Shown here in pieces: positions 1 through 15,581 of a DNA stretch of 15,581 nucleotides. Positions within the stretch are counted from its first letter, which is position 1; each line of letters opens with the position of its first letter. The notes below the pieces were generated by a model. The model was not told where the DNA came from and did not search any database. It saw only the letters and a list, made by a program, of their open reading frames with translations. The position numbers and the translations under genes were made by a program. The stretch lies in contig JADGGM010000009.1 of assembly GCA_019689955.1 (NCBI GenBank), positions 1-15,581 on the forward strand. Direction: 5' to 3'. Origin of the DNA: Gemmatimonadaceae bacterium. GTDB taxonomy: Bacteria > Gemmatimonadota > Gemmatimonadetes > Gemmatimonadales > Gemmatimonadaceae.

Positions 1-1
1 G

Positions 2-841
2 ATCGCCGAGCAGCTCGTGGCGATGGGGTACACGCTGTGCATCCTCGATCTCGAGGGGGACCACCTCGCGATCGGCGAGCTGCACGGCGTCATCGCCGCC
101 GGCGGGCGCGAGCGGCTGCCCACGCCGGAGCACGTCGGGCGGTTGCTGCGGCAGGGGTTCACGTCGGTGGTGATCGACCTCTCGCTGCACGACGACCACG
201 CGAAGCGGAGCTACGCGGCCGCCGTGCTCGAGGAACTCCGCCGCACGCGCGAGGAGCGCGGGCTCCCGCACTGGATCATCGTGGACGAGGCGCACGTCCC
301 GATGACGCGGGAGCTCCGCGGGTGGTGGTGCGGCGGCACGGGGGAGCGGGGGTTCTGTCTCGTGACGTACCGCCCCGACCTCCTCTGCCCCGGGACCGCG
401 GAGGAGGCCCAGATCATCCTCACGTTGGGCACCGACGGGTCGGCGACGATCGAGCGGCGCGGGAGCGGCGCGCCGCGCCCATTCACGTCGGCCGCGCGCG
501 CGACGGCGCACGTCCGGCACTGGCACAAGTACACTGCCGGACAGCTCCCGGTGCACCGGCGCTTCTACTTTCGCGATCCCGGCGGGCTGACGGGACGCAC
601 GGCGGGGAACATCCCGGAGCTCCGCGACGAGCTGCGCCGGGCGAGCTGGGCCACGCTCCGCCACCACGCCGCGGGGCACGAGCTCTCTCGCTGGCTCGGG
701 GATCTCACTGCCGACCCCACGACCCGCGCCGCGATCGAGGCGATCGAGGACGCCATCTCGGCGTGCCCCGACTCGACGTGCGCCGAGCCGCTGCGCGCGC
801 GCCTCGTCACCGCCATCGAGGAGCAGCTACGCCCGCGATAG
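2..841 (+). CDS. P-loop ATPase (HerA/DUF853-like), C-terminal part, 5'-truncated by window edge
   Basis: The reading frame is open from base 2, so the real start lies to the left; an internal GTG at 17 is not a credible start. 279 residues are visible. The fragment begins with IAEQLVAMGYTLCILDLEGD, which resembles the stretch just after a Walker A motif, so the P-loop itself should lie upstream. A hydrophobic strand (VVIDLS) and a Walker B-type HWIIVDEAH follow, then a VTYRP segment. The C-terminal third carries VRHWHKY, a RFYFRD strand, GRTAGN and SRWL. From memory this order is typical of ATPase domains of the DUF853/HerA type that are often fused to an N-terminal HAD-like phosphatase. Such a fusion cannot be seen here. 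The substrate and role are unknown. The gene converges on the permease gene at 900, with 58 bases between the stop codons. ATPase assignment is fairly safe; the subfamily is a recollection. Confidence 0.6.
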   Translation: MAEQLVAMGYTLCILDLEGDHLAIGELHGVIAAGGRERLPTPEHVGRLLRQGFTSVVIDLSLHDDHAKRSYAAAVLEELRRTREERGLPHWIIVDEAHVPMTRELRGWWCGGTGERGFCLVTYRPDLLCPGTAEEAQIILTLGTDGSATIERRGSGAPRPFTSAARATAHVRHWHKYTAGQLPVHRRFYFRDPGGLTGRTAGNIPELRDELRRASWATLRHHAAGHELSRWLGDLTADPTTRAAIEAIEDAISACPDSTCAEPLRARLVTAIEEQLRPR

Positions 842-907
842 CGGGGTGACGATACCGCCCCGAGCACGCGCGCATCGAACGCCGCGCCCGCGGCGCGATT
901 CACCCCG
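842..907. terminator. Nested inverted repeat between convergent stop codons (candidate bidirectional terminator)
   Basis: An outer 8-bp inverted repeat (CGGGGTGA at 842-849 with TCACCCCG at 900-907) encloses an inner hairpin, CGCCGCG at 880-886 and CGCGGCG at 889-895. The structure covers the gap between the TAG of the + strand ATPase gene (839-841) and the TGA of the - strand permease gene (900-902). No clear run of T follows on either strand, so this is not a classical intrinsic terminator. Its placement between convergent genes is the main argument for a transcription-ending role. GC-rich DNA also produces such repeats by chance. Confidence 0.35.
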
Positions 908-1934
908 GGCGCTGGTGCGCCACTCCCTCGCCGTGCTCCCGCTGGTAGATCTGCAGGAGCTCGAAGAAGTACGAGATCGCGAGCGGGCCGAGGAGCACGC
1001 CGATCAACCCGAACGCCTCCACCCCGGCGAACGCGCCGACGAGCGTGGTCATGGGGTGGAGGTTCGACACGCGCCGGTACACGATCGGCCGGACCACGTT
1101 GTCGATGTTCGACGCCACGACCGCCCCGATGAGCGCGAGCGCGATCGCCGGGCCGTAGCGCCCCTGGAGCAGGAGGAAGAGCGTCCCCGGCACCCACACC
1201 AGCGCGCTCCCGAGCACGGGGAGGATCGACGCGAAGCCCGTGACCACCCCCCAGAACAGCGCATTGGGGAGCCCCACGCCCCAGAACGCGATCCCGACGA
1301 TCGATCCTTGCAGCAGCGCGGTGACGAGGATCCCGATCACCATTGCCTGCGTGACGCTGAAGAAGCGATCGCGCAGGAGCTGCGTGTTCGCGTCGCCGAA
1401 GGGGATGAGCGGGGCGAGGCGGTCCCACGTGTGGGTGCTGGGGAGGAGGAGGTAGTACAGCTCGAAGAGCGCGATGACGAGGTTGAGCGCCGCGCGCGTG
1501 AGGTGGGCGAAGACCTGGAGCGTCTGGAGCGAGGCCCACGAGAGGAGCGCGTCGGCCGCCTGGGCGAGGTGCGCGCCGACGGCCACGCCGCCCACGTGGA
1601 GCGCGGAGAGCCGGCCGAGCGCCCCGCTCCCGAGGACGTTGCGGACCACGGACGGCGTCTGCCCGATCGCGACGGTGATCACCCACACGCCGGGGGTGAG
1701 GACGAGCACGAACACGCCGATGACGACCAGGAGGGCCGCGAGGCGTGGCGGCATCCGCGCGGCGAGCCGTTTCTGCAGCGGCGCGCAGAGGACGTACAGC
1801 ACGACGCCGCCGAGCAAGCCGACGGCGAAGGGGAGGAGCGCCCAGAGAAGCCCGAGGCCGAGCGCGACGAGCAACACGAGCGCCGGCCGGCGCGTGGCGT
1901 CCGCGCCTCCGCTCCCCCACCAGTCGCCGGTCAC
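900..1934 (-). CDS. AI-2E family transporter (PerM/YdiK-like membrane permease)
   Basis: 344 residues from a GTG start at 1934; family members are usually about 340-400 residues. The protein is highly hydrophobic. Near the N-terminus there are two membrane segments (ALVLLVALGLGLLWALLPFA, then LAALLVVIGVFVLVLTPGVW). A long amphipathic central region follows, then a C-terminal membrane bundle containing IGILVTALLQG, FWGVVTGFASILPVLGSA, LALIGAVVASNIDNVVRP and a final GLIGVLLGPLAISYFFEL. The loop with P-x-L-G-S-A and the NIDNVVRP motif are characteristic of the AI-2E/UPF0118 family. Members have been reported as autoinducer-2 exporters or Na+/H+ antiporters, so the substrate cannot be read from the sequence. 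The GTG overlaps the TGA of the fumarylacetoacetase gene by four bases (1931-1934) and no good Shine-Dalgarno precedes it, suggesting translational coupling. It is the last gene of the tyrosine-degradation operon. Longer in-frame extensions upstream only shadow fahA. Confidence 0.85.
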   Translation of the reverse strand: MTGDWWGSGGADATRRPALVLLVALGLGLLWALLPFAVGLLGGVVLYVLCAPLQKRLAARMPPRLAALLVVIGVFVLVLTPGVWVITVAIGQTPSVVRNVLGSGALGRLSALHVGGVAVGAHLAQAADALLSWASLQTLQVFAHLTRAALNLVIALFELYYLLLPSTHTWDRLAPLIPFGDANTQLLRDRFFSVTQAMVIGILVTALLQGSIVGIAFWGVGLPNALFWGVVTGFASILPVLGSALVWVPGTLFLLLQGRYGPAIALALIGAVVASNIDNVVRPIVYRRVSNLHPMTTLVGAFAGVEAFGLIGVLLGPLAISYFFELLQIYQREHGEGVAHQRPG

Positions 1935-3244
1935 GGTGCCGCGAGCACGATCCCGCTGCACGCGCCGAGGCCGATGCGCACCGCCCCTTCGCGCTCGCAG
2001 TAGCCGCGCAGGATGACCTCGTCGCCGTCCTCGAGGAAGCGGCGCACCTCCCCGCCCGGCAGCTCGAGCGGCTCCTGCCCGCGCCACGTCCGCTCCAGCA
2101 AGCACCCGCGCGAATCCGGCGCCTCCCCGGAGACGGTGCCGCTCGCGATCAGGTCGCCCGGACGGAGGTTGCACCCGTTGCTCGTGTGGTGCGCGAGCAT
2201 CTGCGCGAAGGTCCAGTACATCGTGGTGAAGCTCACGCGGCTCACGCACGCCGGCGGCGCGCCCTGCTCCCGCATGCGCGCGGTGCGGAGATGCACCTCG
2301 AGCGTGAGCGCGATCCCGCCGCGCGCGCGGTCGCCATCATCGCGCAGATAGTCGAGGAGGGGTGGATCGCCGGCGGGGCGCACGGGGCCGGGCCCCCGGA
2401 AGGGCTCCAGCGCCTCCATCGTCACGACCCACGGGGACACGGTCGTGGCGAAGCTCTTCCCGAGGAAGGGGCCAAGCGGCTGATACTCCCACGCCTGGAT
2501 GTCGCGTGCGGACCAGTCGTTGACGAGGCAGATGCCGAACAGGTGCTCCTCCGCGCGCGCGAGCGGCACGGGGGTGCCGAGCGGGTTCCCTCGCCGGACG
2601 AACGCGCCGACCTCGAGCTCGTAGTCGAGCGACTGGGTGCGGTCGACGCGCGGCACGTCGGCCGATGGGGGCTTGATCTGTCCGCGCGGGCGCACGACGG
2701 GGGTCCCGCTCACCACGAGCGAGGAGGCGCGGCCGTGGTAGCCGATCGGGACCCACTTGTAGTTGGGGAGGAGAGGGTTGTCGGGGCGAAACATGCGCCC
2801 GACGTTCGTCGCGTGGTGCACCGAGGCGTAGAAGTCGGTGTAGTCGCCGACCTGGGCCGGGAGCTGCAACTCGGCCTCCGCCATCGGCACGAGGAGCGAC
2901 GCGCGCGCCCGCTCCGCGCGCGCGTCGCCGCCCACGCGGAGCAGGCGGCTCACGGCGTCGCGGAGCGCGCGCATCGCGCTCGCGTCGAGCGCCATGAGCG
3001 CGTTGAGCGCCGGCACGCGGCACGCCGCCGCCACCTCGCGCGCCTCGCCGGTGAAGAGCCCCGCGTCGAGGCACGCCGCGACGTCGAGGATCGCGTCGCC
3101 GATCGCGACGCCCACGCGCCCCGCCTCGCTCGTCCCGCGCCGGCGGAAGACGCCGACCGGGAGGTTCTGGATCGGGAAGTCGGCGCCGGCGACGTTCGCC
3201 GACTCCACCCACGAGCGCAGCGCGGGATCGTGCGTCTCGTTCAC
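1931..3244 (-). CDS. fahA: Fumarylacetoacetase
   Basis: Hydrolyses fumarylacetoacetate to fumarate and acetoacetate, the last step of homogentisate degradation in the cytosol. 437 residues from the GTG at 3244, close to the roughly 420 of the animal enzyme. An N-terminal SH3-like domain (about 1-125) carries SWVESAN and FPIQNLPVGVF. The catalytic FAH fold follows. By alignment from memory with the mammalian enzyme, metal ligands are D137 (GDYTDFY), E209 and E211 (LDYELEVG) and D243 (VNDWSARD). The catalytic histidine is H144 (HHATNVG), K263 lies in LGKSF, and the GTVSGEAP stretch supplies E374. All key residues are present, so the enzyme should be active. The start overlaps the aminotransferase stop by four bases (GTGA) and is preceded by a GGAGG seven bases upstream. 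The gene in turn overlaps the downstream permease gene. Gene identity is near certain. Confidence 0.96.
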   Translation of the reverse strand: MNETHDPALRSWVESANVAGADFPIQNLPVGVFRRRGTSEAGRVGVAIGDAILDVAACLDAGLFTGEAREVAAACRVPALNALMALDASAMRALRDAVSRLLRVGGDARAERARASLLVPMAEAELQLPAQVGDYTDFYASVHHATNVGRMFRPDNPLLPNYKWVPIGYHGRASSLVVSGTPVVRPRGQIKPPSADVPRVDRTQSLDYELEVGAFVRRGNPLGTPVPLARAEEHLFGICLVNDWSARDIQAWEYQPLGPFLGKSFATTVSPWVVTMEALEPFRGPGPVRPAGDPPLLDYLRDDGDRARGGIALTLEVHLRTARMREQGAPPACVSRVSFTTMYWTFAQMLAHHTSNGCNLRPGDLIASGTVSGEAPDSRGCLLERTWRGQEPLELPGGEVRRFLEDGDEVILRGYCEREGAVRIGLGACSGIVLAAP

Positions 3245-4572
3245 CCGCGCGCCTCCGGTGTGCCCGTGAGCTTCTCGAGCGCGGCCGAAACTTTCGGCAG
3301 CACCGCGGTGATGTCGGCGAGGGAGACGGCGCCCACCGAGAGCCGGAACCACCCGGTGTCCGCCTCGACCCCGAACGCCTGGAACGGCACGGCGGCGAAG
3401 TCGGCGGCAGTGAGCAGGTAGCGGCGGATCGCCTCGTTGTCGCGCAGGACCTCGCCGTCGGGGGTGCGCATGCCGCGCACGTTGAAGCGCGCGCTCAGGT
3501 AGATCGCGCCGGCCGGGGGTACGGCGTCCACGGCGAGCCCGCGCTGCTTCATCGCCATGATCCCGTCATACAGCGCGCCGAGGCGGCGCTGCACCTCGTG
3601 CTTCATCGTGCGGTGGTAGTCGGTGATCGCCTGGCGCGAGGCGAGGAGCTTCGCCGTGGCCACCTGCTCCGGGCGCGGCGCCCACGCGCCGACGTGGCCG
3701 ACGAGGTCGGACATGGGCCCGATGACGTCAGCCGGCCCGAGCGCCCACCCCACGCGCAGCCCCGTGGCCGCGAACGCCTTGGAGATCCCATCGACCAACA
3801 CCACGTACGGCGCGATCTCCGGGCGGAGCCCGGCGGGGGTGACGTGCGCGCGGTCGCCGAAGGTGAGCATCCAGTAGATCTGATCGTAGAGCAAATACAG
3901 CGGCCGCTCGTCGGGCCCGCGCCTGGCGTTCTCTTCGAGCACGAGGTCGCAGATCTCGCCGAGCGCCGCGGCGTCGAGCACCGACCCCGCGGGGTTGAGC
4001 GGGGAGTTGACCACGAGCAGCCGCGCGCCGCGGATCACGGGCTCCAGCATCGTCCGCGTGGGGAGGAACGACGTCGCCGCCTCGCACACCACCGGGACGC
4101 CCTGCGCGCCGATGAGCTGCACGTAGTACGGGTTGTTCCACGACGGCACCGGGTAGACCACGCGATCCCCGGGGTCGACGAGCGTGCGATACGCCGCGTA
4201 GAGCGCCGGCCGCGCCCCGCCGGTGACGAGCACCGACTCTGCGGGGAAGTCGAGGCCGAGCCACTCGCGGGTGAAGCTCCGCACGGCGTCGCGGAGCGCG
4301 GGGATCCCGGACGACGGGGGGTAGTTCGTCTCCCCGTTGGCGAGCGCGTCCTGTGTGGCGCGCACGAGGAGCTCGGGGACGGGGAACTCGCGCGGGCTGA
4401 AGTCGCCGACGGTCAGGTTGCACACCTGGCGTCCGCTGGCGGTGAGGGCGCGGATCTCCCCCGCGATCTTGAGAATCGCCGAGCCGAGGAGCTCGGAGGC
4501 GAGCGTCGACACGCGCCGCGCGCGCCGTCCCGCGCGCGCTGGCACGTCGACCGAATCAGGAACGAGTGGCAT
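3241..4572 (-). CDS. Class I/II PLP aminotransferase, probable tyrosine/aromatic aminotransferase
   Basis: 443 residues, fold-type I PLP enzyme of the aspartate aminotransferase family, cytosolic. Visible motifs in order: NLTVGDFSP (about 52-60), NYPPSSGIPALRDAV (83-97, the usual Y-P-x-x-G-x-P-x-L-R element), NSPLNPAG with N194, LYDQIYW with D230 and Y233, the Schiff-base lysine K265 in DGISKAFAATGLRVGW, and the substrate-carboxylate arginine in WFRLSVG. The family covers many substrates. The proposal that it makes 4-hydroxyphenylpyruvate from tyrosine rests on its place between the conserved unknown gene and fahA, and is inference. An ATG at 4572 is used; no clear Shine-Dalgarno precedes it, and about 20 N-terminal residues look non-conserved, so a later start such as the GTG at 4512 is possible. 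Its TGA overlaps the fahA GTG. Confidence 0.85.
   Translation of the reverse strand: MPLVPDSVDVPARAGRRARRVSTLASELLGSAILKIAGEIRALTASGRQVCNLTVGDFSPREFPVPELLVRATQDALANGETNYPPSSGIPALRDAVRSFTREWLGLDFPAESVLVTGGARPALYAAYRTLVDPGDRVVYPVPSWNNPYYVQLIGAQGVPVVCEAATSFLPTRTMLEPVIRGARLLVVNSPLNPAGSVLDAAALGEICDLVLEENARRGPDERPLYLLYDQIYWMLTFGDRAHVTPAGLRPEIAPYVVLVDGISKAFAATGLRVGWALGPADVIGPMSDLVGHVGAWAPRPEQVATAKLLASRQAITDYHRTMKHEVQRRLGALYDGIMAMKQRGLAVDAVPPAGAIYLSARFNVRGMRTPDGEVLRDNEAIRRYLLTAADFAAVPFQAFGVEADTGWFRLSVGAVSLADITAVLPKVSAALEKLTGTPEARG
3252..3256 (-). promoter_or_regulatory. Ribosome binding site that fixes the fahA GTG start
   Basis: On the - strand GGAGG lies seven bases before the GTG at 3244, inside the last codons of the aminotransferase gene. 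It supports the GTG start over the longer in-frame alternative beginning at 3352, whose extra residues are low-complexity shadow of the aminotransferase gene. The arrangement allows both re-initiation after the overlapping stop and independent loading. Confidence 0.7.
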
Positions 4573-4606
4573 CGATCAAGTCTGGTGAAAGCGTGAGTCC
4601 CGCCGG

Positions 4607-4624
4607 CCGTGCCTCGCGGCACGG
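4607..4624 (-). other. Intercistronic stem-loop with a GNRA tetraloop
   Basis: In the 65-base gap between the conserved unknown gene and the aminotransferase gene, the - strand transcript can form a perfect 7-bp stem, CCGTGCC / GGCACGG, closed by GCGA, a GNRA-type tetraloop. No U-run follows. A role in mRNA stability, processing or partial termination is possible. The gap is the longest inside this operon and the downstream gene lacks an obvious ribosome binding site. The structure is seen directly; the function is inference. Confidence 0.45.
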
Positions 4625-4637
4625 GGCCGCGGGGCGA

Positions 4638-5537
4638 TCACAACAGTCCGAGCGCCCGCAGATCGGTCACGGGCTCGCGGAAGGAGCACGACCCGAACGC
4701 GATCGCCCCGCGCGCGCGCAGCGCCGCGAGCTCCGCGCTCGAGAAGCGGCGTCCCTGCCAGGTCACCCCGGCGTCGTCGAAGCAGAACGCGCCGGGCGCC
4801 CCCTCGACGAGGAGCGCGGCGACCTCCGATTCCGCCGCGCCCTGCCGCGCGGCCGCGGCCGCGAGGAAGACGTTCAGGAACCCGAACATCGTGCCGCACG
4901 CGCTCCCGGTCTCGTACGTCAACGGATACTCGCCGCGCAGGGGGTGATGCAACCCCGCGGTGGCCTTGAAGGGGAGCTGCAGCGCCGCGCAGGCCACGAG
5001 GAAGCGGGCCACCGCGGCGGGCGCGGGGAACTGCTCGGGGGTGACGCCGCCGGTGCGCACCTTCGCGCGGAGGCCGCGCATGGCGATCCGCTCGAGCAGC
5101 GCGGGCATGGTGTCGTCGAGCGCGACTTCGACGTACGTGGTGAACCCGCGCGGCGTCACGTCGGCCGCGGCATCGACGTCCGTCGGCGACGCGGCGCGCG
5201 TCTCCACGGTGTCGACCGCGAGGTCGTGCGCCGCCGCGTGGCGCTCGTTGAATGCGGGGAGCGCGGCGATCTCCTCCCACTTCCCGAGCGGGACGAGCAC
5301 GCTCAGCGACCACCCGCGCGCCGCGCCCGCGCCGAGCGCGGTGACGGCCTGCTCCATCTCCCCCAACCGCGCGGCGGGGACCACGAAGCGGCCGAGCGCC
5401 CACCGGTCCTCGCTCGCGCGCACGCGCGCGTACTCGCGGACCGCGGAGGGCATGTCGAGCGCCGCCGGCGGGAAGAGGCCGGCGTAGTCGACGATCGCAT
5501 CCAGCAGGATGCGGAGCGATGGGACGGGGTGCGGCAC
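4638..5537 (-). CDS. Conserved protein of unknown function in the tyrosine-degradation operon
   Basis: 299 residues from a GTG at 5537, two bases after the stop of the acetoacetate-CoA ligase gene, so it is almost certainly co-transcribed. I recognise it only as a conserved bacterial hypothetical family. Distinct blocks are LLDAIVDYAGLFPPAALDM (11-29), ASEDRWALGRFVVPAARL (41-58), FTTYVEVAL with E137, LRAKVRTGGVTPEQFP with K159 (156-171), LPFKATAGLHHPLRG with K191, H197 and H198 (188-202), GTMFGFLNVFLAA (215-227), WQGRR and IAFGSCSFREP with C284. Alternating hydrophobic strands ending in charged residues (E137, K159, K191/HH) suggest a TIM-barrel-like enzyme; this is an inference from pattern only. 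No signal peptide or membrane segment is seen. Because maleylacetoacetate isomerase is missing from the operon, an isomerase or accessory role in that pathway is worth testing. A much longer in-frame extension upstream to 7016 is a shadow of the ligase gene. Confidence 0.85.
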   Translation of the reverse strand: MPHPVPSLRILLDAIVDYAGLFPPAALDMPSAVREYARVRASEDRWALGRFVVPAARLGEMEQAVTALGAGAARGWSLSVLVPLGKWEEIAALPAFNERHAAAHDLAVDTVETRAASPTDVDAAADVTPRGFTTYVEVALDDTMPALLERIAMRGLRAKVRTGGVTPEQFPAPAAVARFLVACAALQLPFKATAGLHHPLRGEYPLTYETGSACGTMFGFLNVFLAAAAARQGAAESEVAALLVEGAPGAFCFDDAGVTWQGRRFSSAELAALRARGAIAFGSCSFREPVTDLRALGLL

Positions 5538-5539
5538 GG

Positions 5540-7606
5540 TCAGCTCGCGAGCTCGGGGAGGTTGCGGTACAGCTCCAGGCTCTCGGGGTTGGCGAGCGCG
5601 TCGGCGTTCTTCACCGGACGCCCGTGGATCACCTCGCGCACGGCGATCTCGCTCGTCTTCCCGTTGATGGTGCGCGGGATGTCGCGCACCTGGACGATCA
5701 CGCGCGGCACGTGGTGCGGGCTCGCGTTCTCGCGGATCGTGCGGCGGATCCGCTCGCGCAGCGCATCGTCGAGCACGTGCCCGTCGCGCATGCGGACGAA
5801 GAGCACGACGCGCACGTCGCCGTACGCGTCGCCGGTCTCCTGCCCCACGGCCACGCACTCGACGACTTCGTCGAACGACTCCACCTGGCGGTAGATCTCC
5901 GCGGTCCCGATGCGAACGCCGCCGGGGTTGAGCACGGCGTCGCTGCGCCCGTAGATGACGTACCCTCCATGCGCGGTCTCGGCGCACCAGTCGCCGTGGC
6001 GCCACACGCCGGGGAAGCGCTCGAAGTACGCGCCGCGGTACGCCGCGCCCTCGGGGTCGTCGGCGAAGGCGATGGGCATGCTCGGGAAGGGGCGCGTGCA
6101 CACGAGCTCCCCGGGCTCGCCGCGGAGCCGCGCGCCCGACTCGTCCCACACCTCCACGGCCATCCCGAGCCCGGGGACCTGGATCTCCCCGCGCCACACG
6201 GGCGCCGTGGGGTTCCCGAGCACGAAGCAGGAGATGATGTCGGTGCCGCCGCTGATGCTCGCCAGGTGCACGTCGCGCTTCACGTCGCGGTACACGTAGT
6301 CGAAGCTGTGCGGCGCGAGCGGGCTCCCGGTGGAGAGGATGGCGCGGAGCGCGGACAGGTCGTGCGTGCGCGCGGGGGCGAGCCCCGCCTTCTCGGCGAG
6401 CGCGAGGTACTTCGCGCTCGTCCCGAACACCGTCACCCGCTCCGCCGCCGCCATGTCCCACAGGATCTCCGCCGACGGCGCGAGCGGCGCGCCGTCGTAC
6501 AGCACGACCGTCGCCCCCACGGCGAGGCTGGAGATGAGCCAGTTCCACATCATCCACCCGCAGGTGGTGAAGTAGAAGATCCGGTCCTCGCGCCGGAGAT
6601 CGGTGTGCAGCACGAGCTCCTTCACGTGCTGGAGCAGCGTCCCCCCGGCCCCGTGGACGATCCCCTTGGGGAGCCCGGTGGTGCCGGAGGAGAACATGAC
6701 GAACAGGGGGTGATCGAAGGGGAGCATCGCGCACTCGAGCGCCGCGGGCGCGGCGGCGAACGCGTCCCACGACACGGCGCCGCGCACGCGGTCGAACCCC
6801 GGCGCGAGCGCCGCGCCGCACTCGGCGACGTACGGCACGACCACGGTGCGCTCGATGCTCGGGATGCGCTCGACGATCTCGCGCACGCGATCGGCGCGGT
6901 CGTGCACCTTCCCCGCGTAGCGGTAGCCGTCGGCGACGACGAGCACCTTGGGCTTCACCCGCGCCACGCGGTCGACCACCGCCCCCACGCCGAAGTCCGG
7001 CGAGCACGACGACCACACCGCGCCGATGGCGCTCGTGGCCAGCATCGCGATCACCGTCTCCGAGATGTTCGGCATCACCGCGGCCACGCGGTCGCCGGCG
7101 GTGACTCCGGCCGCACGCAGCGCCGCCGCGACGCGCGCGACACGGTCGGCGAGCTCGGCGTACGTGACCGCGTCACGCCGCCCGCGCTCGCTCCACCCGA
7201 CGAGCGCCGGGTGCACGTCGCGCCAACGGAGCGCGTTCGCGGCGTAGCTGAGCCGGACGCCGGGGAACCATCGCGGCCCGACGCCTGGTGCCGGTGGGGC
7301 CATGCGATCGAGCCCGACGCCCACGCGCTCGGCCGGGGCCCCGGGCTCCGGCCACCCATCGCCGAGCACGTCGCAGAACTCCGCGACGAGCGGCCAGAAT
7401 TGCTCGCGATGCGCGATCGACCAGCGGTGGAGCGCGGCGTAGTCGGGGAGCCCGTCGGCGCGCACCACGCCCGGCGCGCCGCGCTCCGCGGCCAGGCGCG
7501 CGAAGGCCGTGAGGCGCGCCTGCGCCGCACGGCCCGGCGCCGGGACCCAGAGCGGAGGCTCGGCCCCGGCGGCCATCGTCTCGCGGACCTCGCTGGAGTG
7601 CGCCAT
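5540..7606 (-). CDS. aacS: Acetoacetate-CoA ligase (acetoacetyl-CoA synthetase)
   Basis: 688 residues from ATG 7606; the family is about 640-680. It activates acetoacetate, the product of fumarylacetoacetase, to acetoacetyl-CoA with ATP, feeding thiolase and central metabolism. The N-terminal element PLWVPAPGR (about 19-27) and [20 protein letters not shown] are typical of this ligase rather than plain acetyl-CoA synthetase. The ANL-superfamily motifs are complete: [15 protein letters not shown] with SSG at 306-308 (AMP-binding P-loop), [36 protein letters not shown], and the C-terminal adenylation lysine K650 in RTINGKTSE. The start has a GGGG six bases upstream; an inner ATG ten codons later is an alternative. 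It lies 40 bases after hmgA and two bases before the conserved unknown gene. Substrate choice is supported by both sequence style and neighbours. Confidence 0.93.
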
Positions 7607-7646
7607 CACGTGCCCCGTGCACTCCGTCGTGCCATACCGCGAGCGC

Positions 7647-8840
7647 TCACGTGGTCGGCGGTGAGAACGCCGGCCCCTTGTCGTCGATCCAGCTCCGGTG
7701 GTACGCCGGATCTTCGTACGGGAGCGCCGCCTTCGCCACACGCAACGGACGGAAGCTGTCCATCATCACGGCCAGCTCGTTCGTCGCCTTCGCGCCAATC
7801 GACGCCTCTGTGCGCCCCGGGTGCGGCCCGTGCGGGATCCCGTCCGGGTGGTGCGTGATGCTCCCGAACTCGATCCCCTTGCGGCTCATGAACTCGCTCG
7901 ACGCGTAGTACAGCACCTCGTCCGAGTCCACGTTGCTGTGGTGATACGGCGCCGGCACCGCGTCCTCGCCGAAGTCGTACGGACGCGGGCAGAACGAGCA
8001 GATCACGAAGCCGTCCCCCTGGAACGTCTGGTGCACCGGCGGCGGCTGGTGATAGCGCCCGACGATCGGCTCGAAGTCGTGGATGTTGAACGCCCACGGG
8101 TAGAAGTAGCCGTCCCACCCGACCACGTCGAACGGATGGTGGTCGAGGATGACCTCCGTGATCCGGTCGTACTGCTTGACGAGAATCGGGAAGTCGCCGC
8201 GCTCCTCGTGCGTGCGGAGCTCCGTGGGGCGGCGGATGTCGCGCTCCGAGAACGGGGCCCCCTCGATGAGCTGGCCGAACTCGTTCCGGTAGCGCTTGGG
8301 CCAGCGGACGTGCCCGCGGCTCTCGAAGATGAGGAGCTTCGCCGGATCGGCCTTGGGGTCGAAGCGGTAGCGGTGGAGGATCCCGCGGTGGATCACGAGG
8401 TAGTCCCCCTCCCGGAACGGGAGGTCGCCGAACGGCGACTCCAGCACCCCGCCCCCCTTGCTCACGTACACCACTTCGTCCGCCTGGGCGTTGCGGTACG
8501 CGTGCTCGTCCTCGCGATCCGGCTCGACGTAGAGCATCGCGATGTCCTGATTGAAGAGGAGCGGGATGCGGTCGAGCGTCGGGCTCCCGCCGCGCTTCAC
8601 CTGCGAGGTGCGGAAGTGGCGGTGGCGGAGCGTCTGGTCCTCATCGGCTTCGATGACCATGGGACGGATGCACTGCACCGAGCGCACCGCGGTGGGTGGG
8701 TACACGTGATAGAGGAGCGACGAGGTCCCGGTGAACCCTTCGTGCCCCATGAGCTGCTCGGAGTACAGCCCGCCATCCGGCTTGCGGAAGGCCATGTGGC
8801 GCTTCCGCGGGATGCGGCCGAGCGTGTGATAGATGGGCAT
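7647..8840 (-). CDS. hmgA: Homogentisate 1,2-dioxygenase (short bacterial form)
   Basis: Fe(II) ring-cleaving dioxygenase that opens homogentisate to maleylacetoacetate. 397 residues, shorter than the roughly 430-445 of the canonical mammalian or Pseudomonas enzyme. A cupin core is visible: [32 protein letters not shown] and a later [16 protein letters not shown]. The metal site region reads [15 protein letters not shown] followed 36 residues later by IPHGPHPG. By position, H301 and H337 match the two histidines of the human enzyme (H335 and H371). The residue in the place of the human glutamate ligand E341 is D307, with E308 next to it. The gene begins with ATG 14 bases after the hppD stop and is followed by the ligase gene, so function is well supported by context. 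I remember the HSNVDSDE form from other short bacterial homologues. Confidence 0.92.
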
Positions 8841-8854
8841 GGTCGACCCGCCGT

Positions 8855-11029
<2,175 letters not shown>

Positions 11030-11031
11030 TC

Positions 11032-12429
11032 ATGACGACAGACCCGGCGCTCCTGGACCTCCGCACGCTCGTGCGCTCGGTCCACACCCGCACCCTCTCC
11101 CCCACCGAGATCGCCGACACCACCCTCCGCCGCATCGCGCGCCTCGAGCCCGAGCTGAACGCCTTCATCCGCCGCAGCGACACGGTCCGCGATGAGGCCC
11201 GGCGCGTCGAACGCATCCTCGGCCGCCGCACCGCGCGCACGCGCGATCCCCTCCCCCTCGCCGGCGTGCCCATCTCGATCAAGGACCTGATCCTCACGCG
11301 CAACGCCCCCACGACCGCGGGCTCGCGGACTTTCGGCGAAGGGCTCACTTCGACGCACGACGCCCCGGTCGTCGCGCGGCTCCGCCGGGCCGGGGCGGTG
11401 ATCGTCGGCAAGACGAACCTGCACGAGATCGCGATGGGCGTCACCACGGTGAACGAGCACTTCGGGGCGTCGCGCAATCCGTGGGACCGCACGCGCATCG
11501 CCGGGGGGTCGAGTGGCGGGTCCGCGGTGGCGGTGGCGGCGCGGATGGGCGCGGCGTCGATCGGGACGGACACGCGCGGTTCGATCCGCATCCCCGCGAG
11601 CTGCTGCGGGATCACCGGGCTCAAGCCCACGCGCGGGCTCGTCCCCACGGCGGACGTCATCCCGCTGAGCTGGACGCTCGACCACGTGGGGCCGATGACG
11701 CGCACCGTGGAGGACGCGGCGCTCCTGCTCGGCGTCCTCGCCGGCTCCACGCAGCGCGCGCGACGGTGGCTCGCGGCCGTCGATGCGCCGGTCCGCTCGC
11801 TCCGCGTGGGGCTCTCGCCGTACTACTTCACCGACGTCGACGCCGAGATCGAGCGCGCGGTGCGGGAGGCGATCGCGGTCATCGAGCGGCTCGCCGGTCC
11901 CGCGCGCCCGGTGGCGATCGAGGGGCTGGGCGAGGCGCAGCCCGCGTCGGCGGTGATCACCGGCGCGGAGGCGATCGCATACCACGACGCGCGGCTCCGG
12001 GCCAACCCCGAGGGGTTCGGCCCGCTCGTGCGCCAGCGCCTGGCGCGCGGGGCCGAGCTCACGGCGATGGCGCTCGTGCAGGCCGAGCGAGCGCGCGCGG
12101 CGCTCGGCGAGGGGTTCGCGCGGGCGTTCCGGGAGGTCGACGTGCTCGTCGCGCCGACTGTCGCCGCGCTCCCGCACCGGATCGGGGAGCACGCGGTGCG
12201 GATCAACGGGCGCGAGGCGAACACGCTCGACGCCTTCACGCGCCTCAACTCGCCGCAGAGCATGGCCGGGCTCCCTGCCCTCTCGATCCCCTGCGGGTTC
12301 TCCGCGAGCGGGCTCCCCATCGGCATGCAGCTCATCGCCGCGCACGGGCGCGACGACGTCGTGCTCGCCCTCGGCGCGGCGTACCAACGCGAGACCGACT
12401 GGCACCTCCGCCGGCCGCCGATCGACTGA
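11032..12429 (+). CDS. Amidase-signature family hydrolase (GatA-like amidase)
   Basis: 465 residues. Hydrolyses an amide (substrate unknown) by the Ser-cisSer-Lys mechanism. K84 lies in the VPISIKDLI motif, the cis-serine is S160 in AGGSSGGSA, and the nucleophile is S184 in GTDTRGSIRIPAS. The spacing (76 and 24 residues) fits the family. The usual DTGGS is DTRGS here, so R182 replaces a glycine beside the oxyanion hole; the catalytic serine is intact. The C-terminal FTRLNSPQSMAGLPALSIPCGF and GLPIGMQLIA are standard. ATG 11032 is preceded by GAGAGGG five bases upstream; an in-frame GTG at 11026 overlapping the lysR stop is possible. It is the only other gene of the lysR transcript. No GatB or GatC gene is adjacent, so a tRNA amidotransferase subunit is unlikely. 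Confidence 0.9.
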   Translation: MTTDPALLDLRTLVRSVHTRTLSPTEIADTTLRRIARLEPELNAFIRRSDTVRDEARRVERILGRRTARTRDPLPLAGVPISIKDLILTRNAPTTAGSRTFGEGLTSTHDAPVVARLRRAGAVIVGKTNLHEIAMGVTTVNEHFGASRNPWDRTRIAGGSSGGSAVAVAARMGAASIGTDTRGSIRIPASCCGITGLKPTRGLVPTADVIPLSWTLDHVGPMTRTVEDAALLLGVLAGSTQRARRWLAAVDAPVRSLRVGLSPYYFTDVDAEIERAVREAIAVIERLAGPARPVAIEGLGEAQPASAVITGAEAIAYHDARLRANPEGFGPLVRQRLARGAELTAMALVQAERARAALGEGFARAFREVDVLVAPTVAALPHRIGEHAVRINGREANTLDAFTRLNSPQSMAGLPALSIPCGFSASGLPIGMQLIAAHGRDDVVLALGAAYQRETDWHLRRPPID

Positions 12430-12433
12430 CAAT

Positions 12434-12491
12434 CCGGCCGGCGTACGCGCGCGTTCATCGTGCAACCGGCCGGCCGTCACGCGCCGGCCGG
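12434..12491. repeat. Three copies of the palindrome CCGGCCGG just after the amidase stop
   Basis: Copies lie at 12434-12441, 12466-12473 and 12484-12491; the third is part of a 10-bp palindrome GCCGGCCGGC (12483-12492). Each copy can self-pair or pair with either other copy, so alternative hairpins are possible in the 3' untranslated region of the lysR-amidase transcript. No T-run is present. Confidence 0.5.
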
Positions 12492-12554
12492 CTCTGCGCG
12501 CGCCGCGACGATGGCGCGCTCAGCATTCTCGCATACCCGCGCTCGCCCCGGCCG

Positions 12555-12578
12555 CGCTCCGCTGCACTGCGCGGAGCG
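12555..12578 (+). terminator. Strong hairpin without T-run, possible terminator of the lysR-amidase transcript
   Basis: A perfect 8-bp stem CGCTCCGC / GCGGAGCG closes an 8-base loop (12563-12570). It lies 126 bases after the amidase stop. The lack of a following T-run argues against a classical intrinsic terminator, although very GC-rich genomes often show such hairpins at transcript ends. Confidence 0.35.
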
Positions 12579-12615
12579 TGACGGCGACACAGCGGAACGG
12601 CCAGCGCATTGCAGC

Positions 12616-12629
12616 ACGACCGCGGTCGT
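12616..12629. promoter_or_regulatory. 14-bp perfect palindrome upstream of the CBS gene
   Basis: ACGACCGCGGTCGT is a perfect 14-bp palindrome lying 143 bases before the CBS-domain gene. Length and symmetry are compatible with a binding site for a dimeric regulator, but nothing in the window identifies that protein. Chance occurrence is not excluded at this base composition. Confidence 0.3.
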
Positions 12630-12772
12630 CGCCGCGCGTGTGCACGGCACGCGAGCCGCGTCCGCGAATGCCGGACAGCGGCTTCGCCATCCGCTGACAC
12701 CGCGGCCGCCCGGGATGCCGTACCGTGTGCACGTGCCAGCTTCATCACGACCGTCCCAGCACGGGAGGACTT

Positions 12773-13222
12773 ATGAAAGCCAAGGAGATCATGACGCCCG
12801 ACCCGGTGACCGTGACCCCGAGCGACACCATCGCTCGCGCAGCAGAGCTCATGCAATCGTACGGCATCGGCATGGTCCCGGTGATCGACGGCGCGGCCAA
12901 GCAGCGCGTCGAGGGAGTCATCACGGACCGCGACATCACGGTTCGGTGCGTGGCCGAGCATCACGGGACCGACTGCCACGTCGCGGACCACATGACCAGT
13001 GCAAAGCTCGCCACGGTGCGCCCGGACGACGACATCAGCGCCGTGATGGACAAGATGGAGCGCGAGCAGGTCCGCCGCGTGCTGGTCGTCGATGAACGTG
13101 GGATGCTCGCCGGGGTCATCGCGCAGGCCGACCTGGCGACGAAGCTGGGCCCGAAGGAGCCGGCGCGCGTCGAGCACGTGCTGGAGCGCATCTCGGCGCC
13201 GCGCGGCATCCCCGTGGCGTAG
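12773..13222 (+). CDS. Two-CBS-domain protein
   Basis: 149 residues, consisting of a tandem pair of CBS domains that normally binds adenosine nucleotides such as AMP or ATP and senses energy state. CBS1 is about 1-60 (MKAKEIMTPDPVTVTPSDTI, then GIGMVPVID and GVITDRDIT). CBS2 is about 70-135 (HVADHMTSAKLATVRPDDDI, then VRRVLVVDERGMLAGVIAQADL). No catalytic or DNA-binding domain is attached, as in many small stand-alone stress-associated CBS proteins. The start is fixed by GGGAGGA (12763-12769) directly before ATG 12773. It precedes the hsp20 gene by 124 bases in the same direction, so it may be a separate transcript with a related stress role. Function beyond ligand sensing is unknown. Confidence 0.9.
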   Translation: MKAKEIMTPDPVTVTPSDTIARAAELMQSYGIGMVPVIDGAAKQRVEGVITDRDITVRCVAEHHGTDCHVADHMTSAKLATVRPDDDISAVMDKMEREQVRRVLVVDERGMLAGVIAQADLATKLGPKEPARVEHVLERISAPRGIPVA

Positions 13223-13333
13223 TCGTGCAGGTCGGACGAAGCCCGACGCGTCGCCTGAGATGTTCCGACAGACGGCGGGCTCGCGACGCCGCATCATGGT
13301 CGGTGCTTCACCACACGTGACTCATCTGTACAC

Positions 13334-13341
13334 GGAGGAGG
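13334..13341 (+). promoter_or_regulatory. Very strong ribosome binding site of the hsp20 gene
   Basis: GGAGGAGG ends five bases before ATG 13347. It fixes the start and predicts high translation, fitting a stress chaperone. No CIRCE-type inverted repeat (TTAGCACTC-N9-GAGTGCTAA) is present in the 124-base gap before the gene. Confidence 0.75.
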
Positions 13342-13346
13342 TCGTT

Positions 13347-13862
13347 ATGCCACGCACCAAACTCATCCGCCGCCAACCGGCCACGTTCACGCCGATGTTC
13401 CCGACGCCGTTCCTTTCCCGCACGCTCTCTCCGCTCACCGCGACCGCGGACGAGCTGCTGGCGCAGGCCGACGAGATGATGCGTGCAGCGTTCGGGACGC
13501 TCCCGATCGCCACGCGCGGTGAATGGTTCCCGGCGGTCAACGTGAGCGAGACGAAGGACGAGCTCACGATCACCGCCGAGCTCCCCGGGATGTCGGCGAA
13601 GGACATCTCGGTCGACTACACCGACGGCGTGCTCACGATCAAGGGGGAGAAGGAGCAGGAGACGACCAAGGAAGAGGAGGAACGGAGGTACTACATGTGG
13701 GAGCGCCGCTTCGGCTCGTTCCAGCGGTCGCTCCCCTTCCCCGGCGGGATCGCGGAGGACAAGATCTCCGCCGAGTTCAAGGATGGCGTGCTGACGGTGC
13801 ACCTGCCGAAGACCGAGGAGGTGAAGGCGACACCGCACGCGATCCCGATCACCGAGAAGTAG
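13347..13862 (+). CDS. Small heat shock protein, Hsp20/alpha-crystallin family
   Basis: 171 residues. ATP-independent holdase chaperone that forms oligomers and binds unfolding proteins in the cytosol. A variable N-terminal arm (1-58, with FPTPFLSRTLSPL) precedes the alpha-crystallin domain at about 60-157. Landmarks are WFPAVNVSETKDELTITAEL, the ELPGM turn, GVLTIKGEK, the RRFGSFQRSLPFP strand and AEFKDGVLTVHLPK with the conserved G-V-L signature. The C-terminal I-x-I motif is I166-P-I168, used for oligomer assembly. The archease gene starts seven bases after the stop, so this chaperone is probably co-expressed with the RNA-repair genes. Regulation by heat is expected for the family but no known heat-shock operator is seen. 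Confidence 0.95.
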   Translation: MPRTKLIRRQPATFTPMFPTPFLSRTLSPLTATADELLAQADEMMRAAFGTLPIATRGEWFPAVNVSETKDELTITAELPGMSAKDISVDYTDGVLTIKGEKEQETTKEEEERRYYMWERRFGSFQRSLPFPGGIAEDKISAEFKDGVLTVHLPKTEEVKATPHAIPITEK

Positions 13863-13869
13863 CGACGCC

Positions 13870-14289
13870 ATGCGCCCGCGGGCGGAGACCGTGGAGCACG
13901 TCGGCGAGTGGAAGGTCGCGCTCACGGCCGACTCGCTCGAGGAGCTGTTCGGCGAGGCCGCGCGCGTGATCGCGCGCGCCGTCGGCCCCACTGGCGCTCC
14001 GCCCGGGGCATGGGAGCGGGTCGCGCTCGCCGCGCGCGATCTGCCGACGCTGCTCGTCGACTGGACGAACGAGCTGCTCGGCCGATCGGAGGCGAACGCT
14101 CGGGCGTACGCGGAGGTGCGGAACGTGCGCATCCGCGTACGCCCGGACGGCGCCGCGGAGGTCTCCGCGATGGTGCGGGGCTCGCCGGTCGAGGAATGGC
14201 AGTCCCCGATCAAGGCGGCGACCTATCACGCGCCGACGGTCACGCGCGATGACGGCCGGTGGCGCGCCACGCTCCTGCTCGATGTCTGA
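13870..14289 (+). CDS. Archease (RtcB ligase activator)
   Basis: 139 residues, typical archease length. Archease promotes guanylylation and multiple turnover of the RNA ligase RtcB. Visible conserved parts are EHVGEWKV near the N-terminus, SLEELFGEAARVIA (22-35), LLVDWTNELLGRSE (61-74), PIKAATYHAPTV with K115 and H120 (113-124) and the C-terminal LLLDV with D138. The usual N-terminal HTAD metal-binding motif appears as H10-V-G-E13, so one acidic ligand may be Glu. The gene sits seven bases after hsp20 and eight bases before rtcB, and the partner gene confirms the identity. The Shine-Dalgarno is weak, suggesting coupling to hsp20 translation. Confidence 0.9.
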   Translation: MRPRAETVEHVGEWKVALTADSLEELFGEAARVIARAVGPTGAPPGAWERVALAARDLPTLLVDWTNELLGRSEANARAYAEVRNVRIRVRPDGAAEVSAMVRGSPVEEWQSPIKAATYHAPTVTRDDGRWRATLLLDV

Positions 14290-14297
14290 GGTGCACC

Positions 14298-15581
14298 ATG
14301 ACGTCCGGGCCACCAGGCACGACCATCGAGCGGGCGCCATCCCCGGCCGCGGCATCGCTCGTCCGGCGTGACCCGTACACGGCCGACATCCCGACGTCGT
14401 TCCGACCGGACATGCGCGTGCCGGCGCGCATCTATGCCGATGACGCGCTGCTCGCGGCGATCTGCGACGGGGAGGCGCTGACGCAGCTCGTGAACGTCAC
14501 GACGCTCCCCGGGATCGTGGGCTTCGCGTACGGGATGCCCGACATGCACGAGGGGTACGGCTTCCCCGTGGGCGGCGTCGCGGCGACGCTCCTCCCCGAC
14601 GGCGTGGTCTCGCCGGGGGGCGTGGGGTTCGACATCAACTGCGGCGTGCGCCTCCTCGCCACGCCGCTCACGCGCAGCGCGCTCGGCGACCGCCACACGA
14701 CGCTCACGCACGAGATCTCGCGCAGCATCCCGTCCGGCACCGGACGCGGAGGGCACTGGCGGCTTACCGACGCCGAGCTGGACCAGGTGCTCGCCGAGGG
14801 CGCGCGATTCGTCGTGCACGAGCGCGCGCTCGGCCTCGCGGACGACCTGCTGCACACCGAGTCGGGCGGGTGCCTCCCCGACGCGGAGCCGGGGACGGTG
14901 TCCGCGCGCGCCCGCGATCGCGGGCGCGGGCAGCTCGGGACGATCGGCGCGGGGAACCACTTCGTCGAGCTGCATCGCGTCGACAAGCTGTTCGACGACG
15001 ACGCCGCGCGCGCGTTCGGGCTCGCCGTCGACCAGATCACGGTGCTGATCCACACCGGGTCGCGAGGGTTGGGGCACCAGGTGTGCACGGACTACGTGCG
15101 CATGTTCGACGCCCGCCTCGCGTCCTTCGGCATCACGCTCCCCGACCGCCAGCTCTCCTGCGCGCCGGCCTCGTCGGATGTCGGGCTCGCCTATCTGCAC
15201 GCGATGGCCGCGGCGGCGAACTTCGCGTGGGCGAACCGCCAGACGATCGCGCACCGAGTGCGGGACGTCATCGTCCGCATGTTCCCCGAGGTCGCGCCCG
15301 AGCAGGTGCGCACGGTGTACGACGTCGCGCACAACATCGCCAAGCGCGAGCACCACGACGGGCGCTGGCTCTGCGTGCACCGGAAGGGGGCGACGCGCGC
15401 GTTCGGGCCCGGACACGAGGACGTGCCCGCGGACTATCAGCGAGTCGGACAGCCGGTGTTCATCCCCGGCAGCATGGGGACCGCGACATACGTGATGGCG
15501 GGGGTGGCGGAGGCGGCGGCCCGCGCCTTCGGGAGCGCGTGCCACGGCGCGGGGCGCACGTTGAGCCGGGGGGCGGCGAAG
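14298..15581 (+). CDS. rtcB: RNA-splicing ligase RtcB, 3'-truncated by window edge
   Basis: 428 codons are visible; the family is about 480 residues, so roughly the last 50 are outside. RtcB joins RNA ends carrying 2',3'-cyclic phosphate or 3'-phosphate to 5'-OH using GTP and Mn2+, in tRNA splicing or RNA repair. Metal ligands by comparison with the Pyrococcus enzyme are D112 and C115 (GVGFDINCGVR), H221 (GAGNHFVE), H252 (IHTGSRGLGHQ) and H345 (YDVAHNIAKREHH). The guanylylated histidine is H416 in CHGAGRTLSR. GSMGTATYVM is also standard. All ligands are present. Start ATG 14298 lies eight bases after the archease stop; MRVPARIYAD near residue 38 is where many homologues begin, so this one has a longer N-terminal lead. 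The frame continues to the final base of the window. Confidence 0.96.
   Translation, partial: MTSGPPGTTIERAPSPAAASLVRRDPYTADIPTSFRPDMRVPARIYADDALLAAICDGEALTQLVNVTTLPGIVGFAYGMPDMHEGYGFPVGGVAATLLPDGVVSPGGVGFDINCGVRLLATPLTRSALGDRHTTLTHEISRSIPSGTGRGGHWRLTDAELDQVLAEGARFVVHERALGLADDLLHTESGGCLPDAEPGTVSARARDRGRGQLGTIGAGNHFVELHRVDKLFDDDAARAFGLAVDQITVLIHTGSRGLGHQVCTDYVRMFDARLASFGITLPDRQLSCAPASSDVGLAYLHAMAAAANFAWANRQTIAHRVRDVIVRMFPEVAPEQVRTVYDVAHNIAKREHHDGRWLCVHRKGATRAFGPGHEDVPADYQRVGQPVFIPGSMGTATYVMAGVAEAAARAFGSACHGAGRTLSRGAAK

Follow-up and report, generated by a model that had tools for sequence, protein, structure and literature searches.

Introduction

The textbook maleylacetoacetate isomerase of tyrosine breakdown, the zeta-class glutathione transferase MaiA (TIGR01262), is glutathione-dependent. 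Two other enzymes, the mycothiol-dependent maleylpyruvate isomerase (DinB type) and the cysteine-dependent maleate isomerase, convert maleyl compounds from cis to trans and need no glutathione. In this study we analysed a stretch of 15,581 nucleotides from Gemmatimonadaceae bacterium (GenBank assembly GCA_019689955.1, contig JADGGM010000009.1, positions 1 to 15,581), hereafter the window, in which an operon for tyrosine breakdown includes, at 4638..5537 on the minus strand, a gene of a family without a name. The gene and its product are referred to as X. Judging from its gene pairing and predicted fold, X is probably a glutathione-independent maleylacetoacetate isomerase that is unrelated to MaiA. 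The reaction proposed is of a known kind; the protein family has no Pfam or NCBIfam model.

Results

X is a 299-codon open frame on the minus strand with the first base of its GTG start at 5537 and its stop at 4640-4638, and the plus strand across 4638-5537 holds shadow frames only. The acetoacetate-CoA ligase gene has its last base at 5540, and X starts 2 bases past the stop of this gene. The original prediction, made from the sequence alone, had described a 299-residue frame at this position, without stating its strand, and had placed it two bases from the ligase gene; both statements agree with the coordinates.

Evidence on the function of X comes from its pairing with fumarylacetoacetase (FAH, called by TIGR01266 over the cut-off). 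Among 150 genomes of the same phylum, Gemmatimonadota, FAH was found in 73 and X in 72, and all genomes with X also have FAH. X was thus present in 72/73 genomes with FAH and in 0/77 without it (Fisher 9e-43, a test that is blind to shared descent). Counted by genus in the same sample, FAH occurred in 31/75 and X in 30/75. The sole genome of the phylum with FAH and no X (G198) has its FAH match starting from contig base 3 on the plus strand, and its upstream neighbour is therefore off the contig. In 70 of the 72 genomes both matches are on one strand and that of X ends no more than 337 bases before that of FAH, the two exceptions being the window, where an aminotransferase gene lies between them, and G099, where they are on different contigs. 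The association of the family with fahA, which the original prediction had named as a check, is very strong.

A similar pattern was seen in a second phylum, that of G038, which is called Acidobacteriota here via G007, G021 and G045. FAH was over the cut-off in 42 of its 199 genomes and X was present in 34, i.e., in 33/42 genomes with FAH, leaving 9 with FAH and no X, and in 1/157 without FAH (Fisher 3e-28, again with no account taken of shared descent). The lone genome with X and no FAH (G389) carries X at positions 141-1106 of its contig. Of the 33 genomes with both genes, 22 have X within 400 bases on the upstream side of FAH, 4 more within 800 bases, and 2 (G304 and G387) at 2.8 kb.

From a scan of named genomes, 80 X loci were kept and at least 580 relatives were confirmed. 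These loci span Gemmatimonadota, Acidobacteria, Chloroflexota/Herpetosiphon, Planctomycetota, Chlorobiales, Ignavibacteria and others. FAH was directly downstream of X in 65 of them, within 1 kb in 3, and about 3.4 kb away on the opposite strand in 1 (L027); a contig end was found within 1.5 kb in 7.

Plasmid records, which also served as a Pseudomonadota contrast, were searched by tblastn. X was found in 24 of them (17 records plus 7 more), from Streptomyces (11), Priestia (6), Pseudonocardia (2), Rhodococcus (2), Tsukamurella, Nonomuraea and Kovacikia, which fall in Actinomycetota, Bacillota and Cyanobacteriota; in 5 of the Streptomyces records only half of the X query was matched. FAH followed X on the same strand in 24/24 records, at most 162 bases past the X match. 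The gene orders in the annotated records, in which hppD stands for 4-hydroxyphenylpyruvate dioxygenase (HPPD) and HGO for homogentisate dioxygenase, were hppD-X-fahA-hisC-HGO in Priestia, HGO-X-fahA-CoA transferase in one Streptomyces and X-fahA alone in another, HGO-X-fahA in Pseudonocardia, and cupin-X-fahA in Rhodococcus. In Tsukamurella the order was hppD-HGO-X-fahA, so that X sits where the step of MaiA falls. The Sphingobium operon taken for contrast had the order phenylalanine hydroxylase-hppD-hmgA-fahA-maiA, with no X. MaiA-like sequences were present in 229 plasmid records, and none of the 24 X records was among the 60 matches listed, which by lineage we take to be Pseudomonadota.

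No MaiA match over the TIGR01262 cut-off (171 bits) was obtained in 150 genomes of the phylum, the genome of the window included (completeness is 90% or more and contamination 5% or less for 146 of the 150), in 50 genomes with X chosen for spread from the 80 loci, in the 42 Acidobacteriota with FAH, or in 80 Bacteroidota with FAH. A control search of 14 named genomes was over the cut-off in 1. In the genome of the window itself there was no match at E <= 1, an absence that is weak when taken alone because the assembly is 88.7% complete. Matches below the cut-off, of 27-74 bits, were found in 3 genomes of the set of 150, 1 of the 50, 4 of the 42 and 0 of the 80, and six of these eight genomes carry X (G019, G194, G279, G266, G230 and G348). 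With the Sphingobium MaiA as query, no relative was detected within the stretches examined around the 80 X loci.

The third phylum, that of G037, is called Bacteroidota here and includes G003 (Chlorobiales) and G005 (Thermochlorobacteriaceae). FAH was found in 90 of its 247 genomes. Among the 80 genomes with FAH that were examined, in which G003, G005 and G037 were X-positive by choice, X (E <= 1e-5) was present in 32, with strong matches (at least 206 bits) in 27 and weak ones (111-128 bits) in 5. The strong copies were located less than 400 bases upstream of FAH in 22 genomes, at 3.0 kb in 4, and on another contig in 1 (G463), and the weak copies were all far from FAH. Several of the X-negative Bacteroidota have beside FAH a flavin-reductase-like protein of 300 residues (PF01613), which we call F (L118:6099-6998, L125:6095-6955, L129:7227-8132, L115:8656-9510 and L120:8289-9212); the gene order in L118 and L129 is HGO-FAH-F-ligase-HPPD.

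F was searched for in 80 genomes, namely 48 X-negative and 22 of the 32 X-positive Bacteroidota, 9 X-negative Acidobacteriota and the genome of the window. The matches were bimodal: 46 were full-length with at least 343 bits, and all others had at most 176 bits. Full-length F was present in 40/48 X-negative Bacteroidota, in 5/5 with a weak X and in 1/17 with a strong X (G463); it was found in 0/9 X-negative Acidobacteriota and not in the genome of the window. Strong X and F are thus complementary (Fisher 4e-9, likewise blind to shared descent). Of the 46 full-length F, 17 are encoded no more than 1 kb from FAH. At 12 loci where F lies away from FAH, no HPPD, HGO or FAH was seen beside it, and its role is for this reason less sure than that of X.

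The four strong Bacteroidota copies of X that were inspected kept all 23 invariant residues. The five weak copies kept K159 and K191, but they have Thr in place of C284, lack R161 and H197, and retain little of the RTGG and TAGLHH blocks. They are positional orthologues (L128:6001-6990; others in L134-L137), syntenic with the intact X of G432 in the order hemN, HU-like gene, small gene, X, large gene, with hemN not found within the stretch of L134; hemN and the large gene also adjoin the intact X of G463. Three states of this locus were observed: an intact X in a genome without F (G432), an intact X in a genome that has F beside FAH (G463), and an X that lost its motif, again with F beside FAH (five genomes). 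The simplest reading of these sequences would be that F took over the task of X, and that X then drifted or gained another role. Separately, in three Bacteroidota loci (L111, L113 and L114) FAH itself was seen at the hemN/HU locus where relatives carry X; these genomes have no matches to X, full-length F or MaiA.

X gave no match to Pfam or NCBIfam models at E <= 1, and neither did 32 diverse relatives at E 0.01. At least 7,996 homologues were found at E 0.001 in a protein search, among the 8,000 candidates scored. Among the 120 matches listed, source names were "hypothetical protein" wherever a name was given, except for one "nitroreductase" (P0092), which is apparently a misannotation. Two alignments of the family searched against PDB sequences revealed no relative, the best matches being 3gbh, a flavin oxidoreductase (E 0.035 over 58 positions), and 1mzh (E 0.49), respectively. 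X as a phage gene was rejected, with no match in phages. No paper on the family was found by title or abstract opening in the open-access literature searched.

The AKVRTGG, FKATAGLHHP and FGSCSF blocks, which had been picked out as conserved from the single sequence, do contain invariant residues across 32 relatives from several phyla: K159, R161, G163, G164, K191, T193-H197, G282, C284 and S285. In the structure model of X (pLDDT 95.1), eight strands alternate with helices to form a beta/alpha barrel; the nearest folds are barrel enzymes, and the closest is deoxyribose-phosphate aldolase (DeoC, DERA). The invariant residues are located at or just past the C-terminal ends of the strands of this predicted aldolase-type (beta/alpha)8 barrel. 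All of the following codons are on the minus strand, and all of the residues are invariant in the 32 relatives. Asp17 (5487..5489) opens a DYAGLFPP block on strand 1, Glu112 (5202..5204) is on strand 4 and Glu137 (5127..5129) on strand 5. Lys159 of AKVRTGG (5061..5063) is on strand 6, followed by Arg161 (5055..5057), and Lys191 of FKATAGLHHP (4965..4967) is on strand 7, followed by His197 (4947..4949). Cys284 of FGSCSF (4686..4688), the proposed nucleophile, lies just past strand 8. K159 belongs to the strand at 157-161 and K191 to that at 190-193, which were set against DERA strands 6/7 by strand order only.

The operon, all on the minus strand, has the transcription order HPPD, HGO-like cupin, acetoacetate-CoA ligase, X, aminotransferase, FAH. 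HPPD, which makes homogentisate, is at 8855..9970 (TIGR01263, 466 bits), the ligase at 5540..7603 (TIGR01217, 887 bits), and FAH, with an uncertain start codon, at 1931..3271 (TIGR01266, 546.5 bits). A class I/II aminotransferase, perhaps aromatic to judge from the operon, is at 3241..4572. The homogentisate 1,2-dioxygenase-like cupin at 7647..8840 is short and divergent (TIGR01015, 43 bits against a cut-off of 511), and annotation may miss such genes. Within the stretches examined, clear relatives of this cupin were found near X in 5 of the 80 loci (L018, L020, L045, L050 and L067) and canonical HmgA in 12 others. A gene for a LysR-type regulator (10133-11029) is located divergently beside HPPD and possibly encodes the regulator of the operon.

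Discussion

The conversion of maleylacetoacetate, the product of HGO, to fumarylacetoacetate, the substrate of FAH, is the step that X would catalyse. The original prediction had suggested a glutathione-independent isomerase, and this suggestion is supported by the failure to find MaiA, by the association with fahA and by the complementarity with F, which the prediction had not anticipated, and from these we infer the function. X probably uses Cys284 for the putative reaction. Taking the role that glutathione has in MaiA, the thiol of Cys284 would add to the cis double bond, allow rotation about it and then leave. Arg161, His197, Lys159 and Lys191 could hold the carboxylates and the enolate, and one lysine may possibly form an iminium with a ketone, which would further loosen the double bond.

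Another chemistry for the same reaction is an isomerisation via a Schiff base, in which Lys159 (or Lys191) would react with a ketone of maleylacetoacetate and the resulting dienamine would rotate, Cys284 being structural or polarising the substrate. In deoxyribose-phosphate aldolase, strand 6 bears the Schiff-base lysine and strand 7 a helper lysine. However, both lysines of X are retained in the five copies not linked to FAH, from which C284, R161 and H197 have been lost, and X showed no similarity to DeoC above that of shuffled sequences (175 of 300 shuffles equalled or beat the alignment score with E. coli DeoC; hhalign probability 0.3%). We consider this chemistry unlikely, if still worth bearing in mind.

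It is also rather unlikely that X is an accessory of FAH, e.g., a keto-enol tautomerase acting on its substrate, a scavenger of some toxic side product, or a partner with a stabilising role. The link of X to FAH is indeed tighter than that to any one type of HGO, as the 12 loci with HmgA and the 5 with relatives of the cupin indicate. On the other hand, the isomerase step would then be unfilled in all these genomes, and the one MaiA operon examined, that of Sphingobium, has no X.

The simpler alternative offered with the original prediction, a MaiA encoded elsewhere or some other glutathione transferase that does the step while X is unrelated to it, has become very improbable. It could draw on the incompleteness of the assembly and on the matches of 27-74 bits in six X-bearing genomes. 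However, nothing passed the cut-off in any set, including the 146 genomes that are at least 90% complete, no MaiA relative was seen around the 80 loci, and pairing with FAH across phyla is not expected of an unrelated protein. The least probable reading, that isomerisation is spontaneous or aided by a small thiol and that X hydrolyses maleylacetoacetate directly or by-passes it in another way, could account for genomes with FAH and none of X, full-length F and MaiA in our searches, but it would make FAH dispensable, yet X occurs without FAH in 0/72 and 1/34 of the X-bearing genomes of the first two phyla.

Several observations weigh against X being the isomerase, or limit how far this function can be extended. 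Shared descent inflates the co-occurrence counts of X and FAH. No FAH was present in the 8 kb downstream of X in 4 of the 80 loci (L032, L033, L042 and L053), and 5 of the 33 Acidobacteriota with both genes do not have X near FAH (G369, G348, G293, G320 and G361). In G369 FAH starts at contig base 87, and the X copies of G348, G293 and G320 kept all residues that are invariant in the 32-member alignment, of which all three are rows. A Nocardia farcinica record (L132) has HGO and FAH adjacent with no X detected, and G463 carries both X and F. The retention of the lysines in the decayed copies indicates that these residues may not be specific to the isomerase reaction. Moreover, 17 genomes with FAH have none of X, full-length F and MaiA, comprising 8 of the 48 X-negative Bacteroidota and 9/9 X-negative Acidobacteriota. 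These 17 exceptions and the Nocardia locus suggest that the step can be met in some other way or go unaided, and the 17 led us to reject the proposal that X alone accounts for every genome with FAH and no MaiA.

Genes adjacent to FAH in the X-negative Acidobacteriota revealed no common substitute; they included phenylalanine hydroxylase (L082 and L084) and one DinB protein (L084). The DinB family includes a mycothiol-dependent isomerase. In L084, from an acidobacterial genome that has neither X nor MaiA, the DinB-family gene (L084:7278-7784) comes after FAH and is a candidate further isomerase, hinting that there may be another solution to this step. In several Phycisphaerae (L032, L033, L037 and L042), the neighbours of X have no link to the pathway and no FAH was seen within the stretch examined, the rest of these genomes not having been searched.

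Tentatively, three or more unrelated maleylacetoacetate isomerases might exist, i.e., MaiA, the barrel protein X with its own thiol, and F in many Bacteroidota, with F having replaced X in one Bacteroidota lineage before the X motif was lost; we would put this at somewhat below an even chance. An isomerase role of X would fill the maleylacetoacetate hole in tyrosine breakdown for Gemmatimonadota, Acidobacteriota and some Chloroflexota, Planctomycetota and Bacteroidota, and the same gap for Priestia, Streptomyces and related Actinomycetota, where annotated records say "hypothetical protein". Thousands of genes would thereby gain a function.

Comparison with known systems

F and X are both found beside FAH (F in L118, L125 and L129), but F is downstream and X upstream, and the two families are unrelated. 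DeoC has the barrel fold nearest to the X model. However, X belongs to no Pfam family, has an extra hairpin after strand 7, an insertion before strand 8 and Cys284, and occurs in a different genomic setting. An assignment of X to DeoC by sequence was rejected on the hhalign probability, the 1mzh match and the shuffles given above; for building a DeoC profile, no DeoC relatives were found in Viral_contigs. The mycothiol-dependent maleylpyruvate isomerase and the maleate isomerase resemble X in the reaction proposed, but X is without any Pfam match, and no DinB or MDMPI domain was matched in X (Pfam, E <= 1) or in the 32 relatives (0.01).

MaiA is the presumed counterpart of X in the pathway: X occupies a like slot, beside fahA and an HGO gene, and presumably catalyses the same reaction. 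The two differ in sequence, with no TIGR01262 match for X (E <= 1) or for the 32 relatives (0.01), and in fold, MaiA having that of the glutathione transferases (thioredoxin-like plus all-helical) and the X model being a TIM barrel. The possibility that X is a distant MaiA or another glutathione transferase was rejected on these two grounds, the lack of an NCBIfam match and the barrel. MaiA uses glutathione, whereas for X an invariant cysteine of its own is proposed instead, and an aldolase-type barrel that relies on a thiol of its own would represent a novel solution for a cis-trans isomerisation otherwise tied to glutathione.
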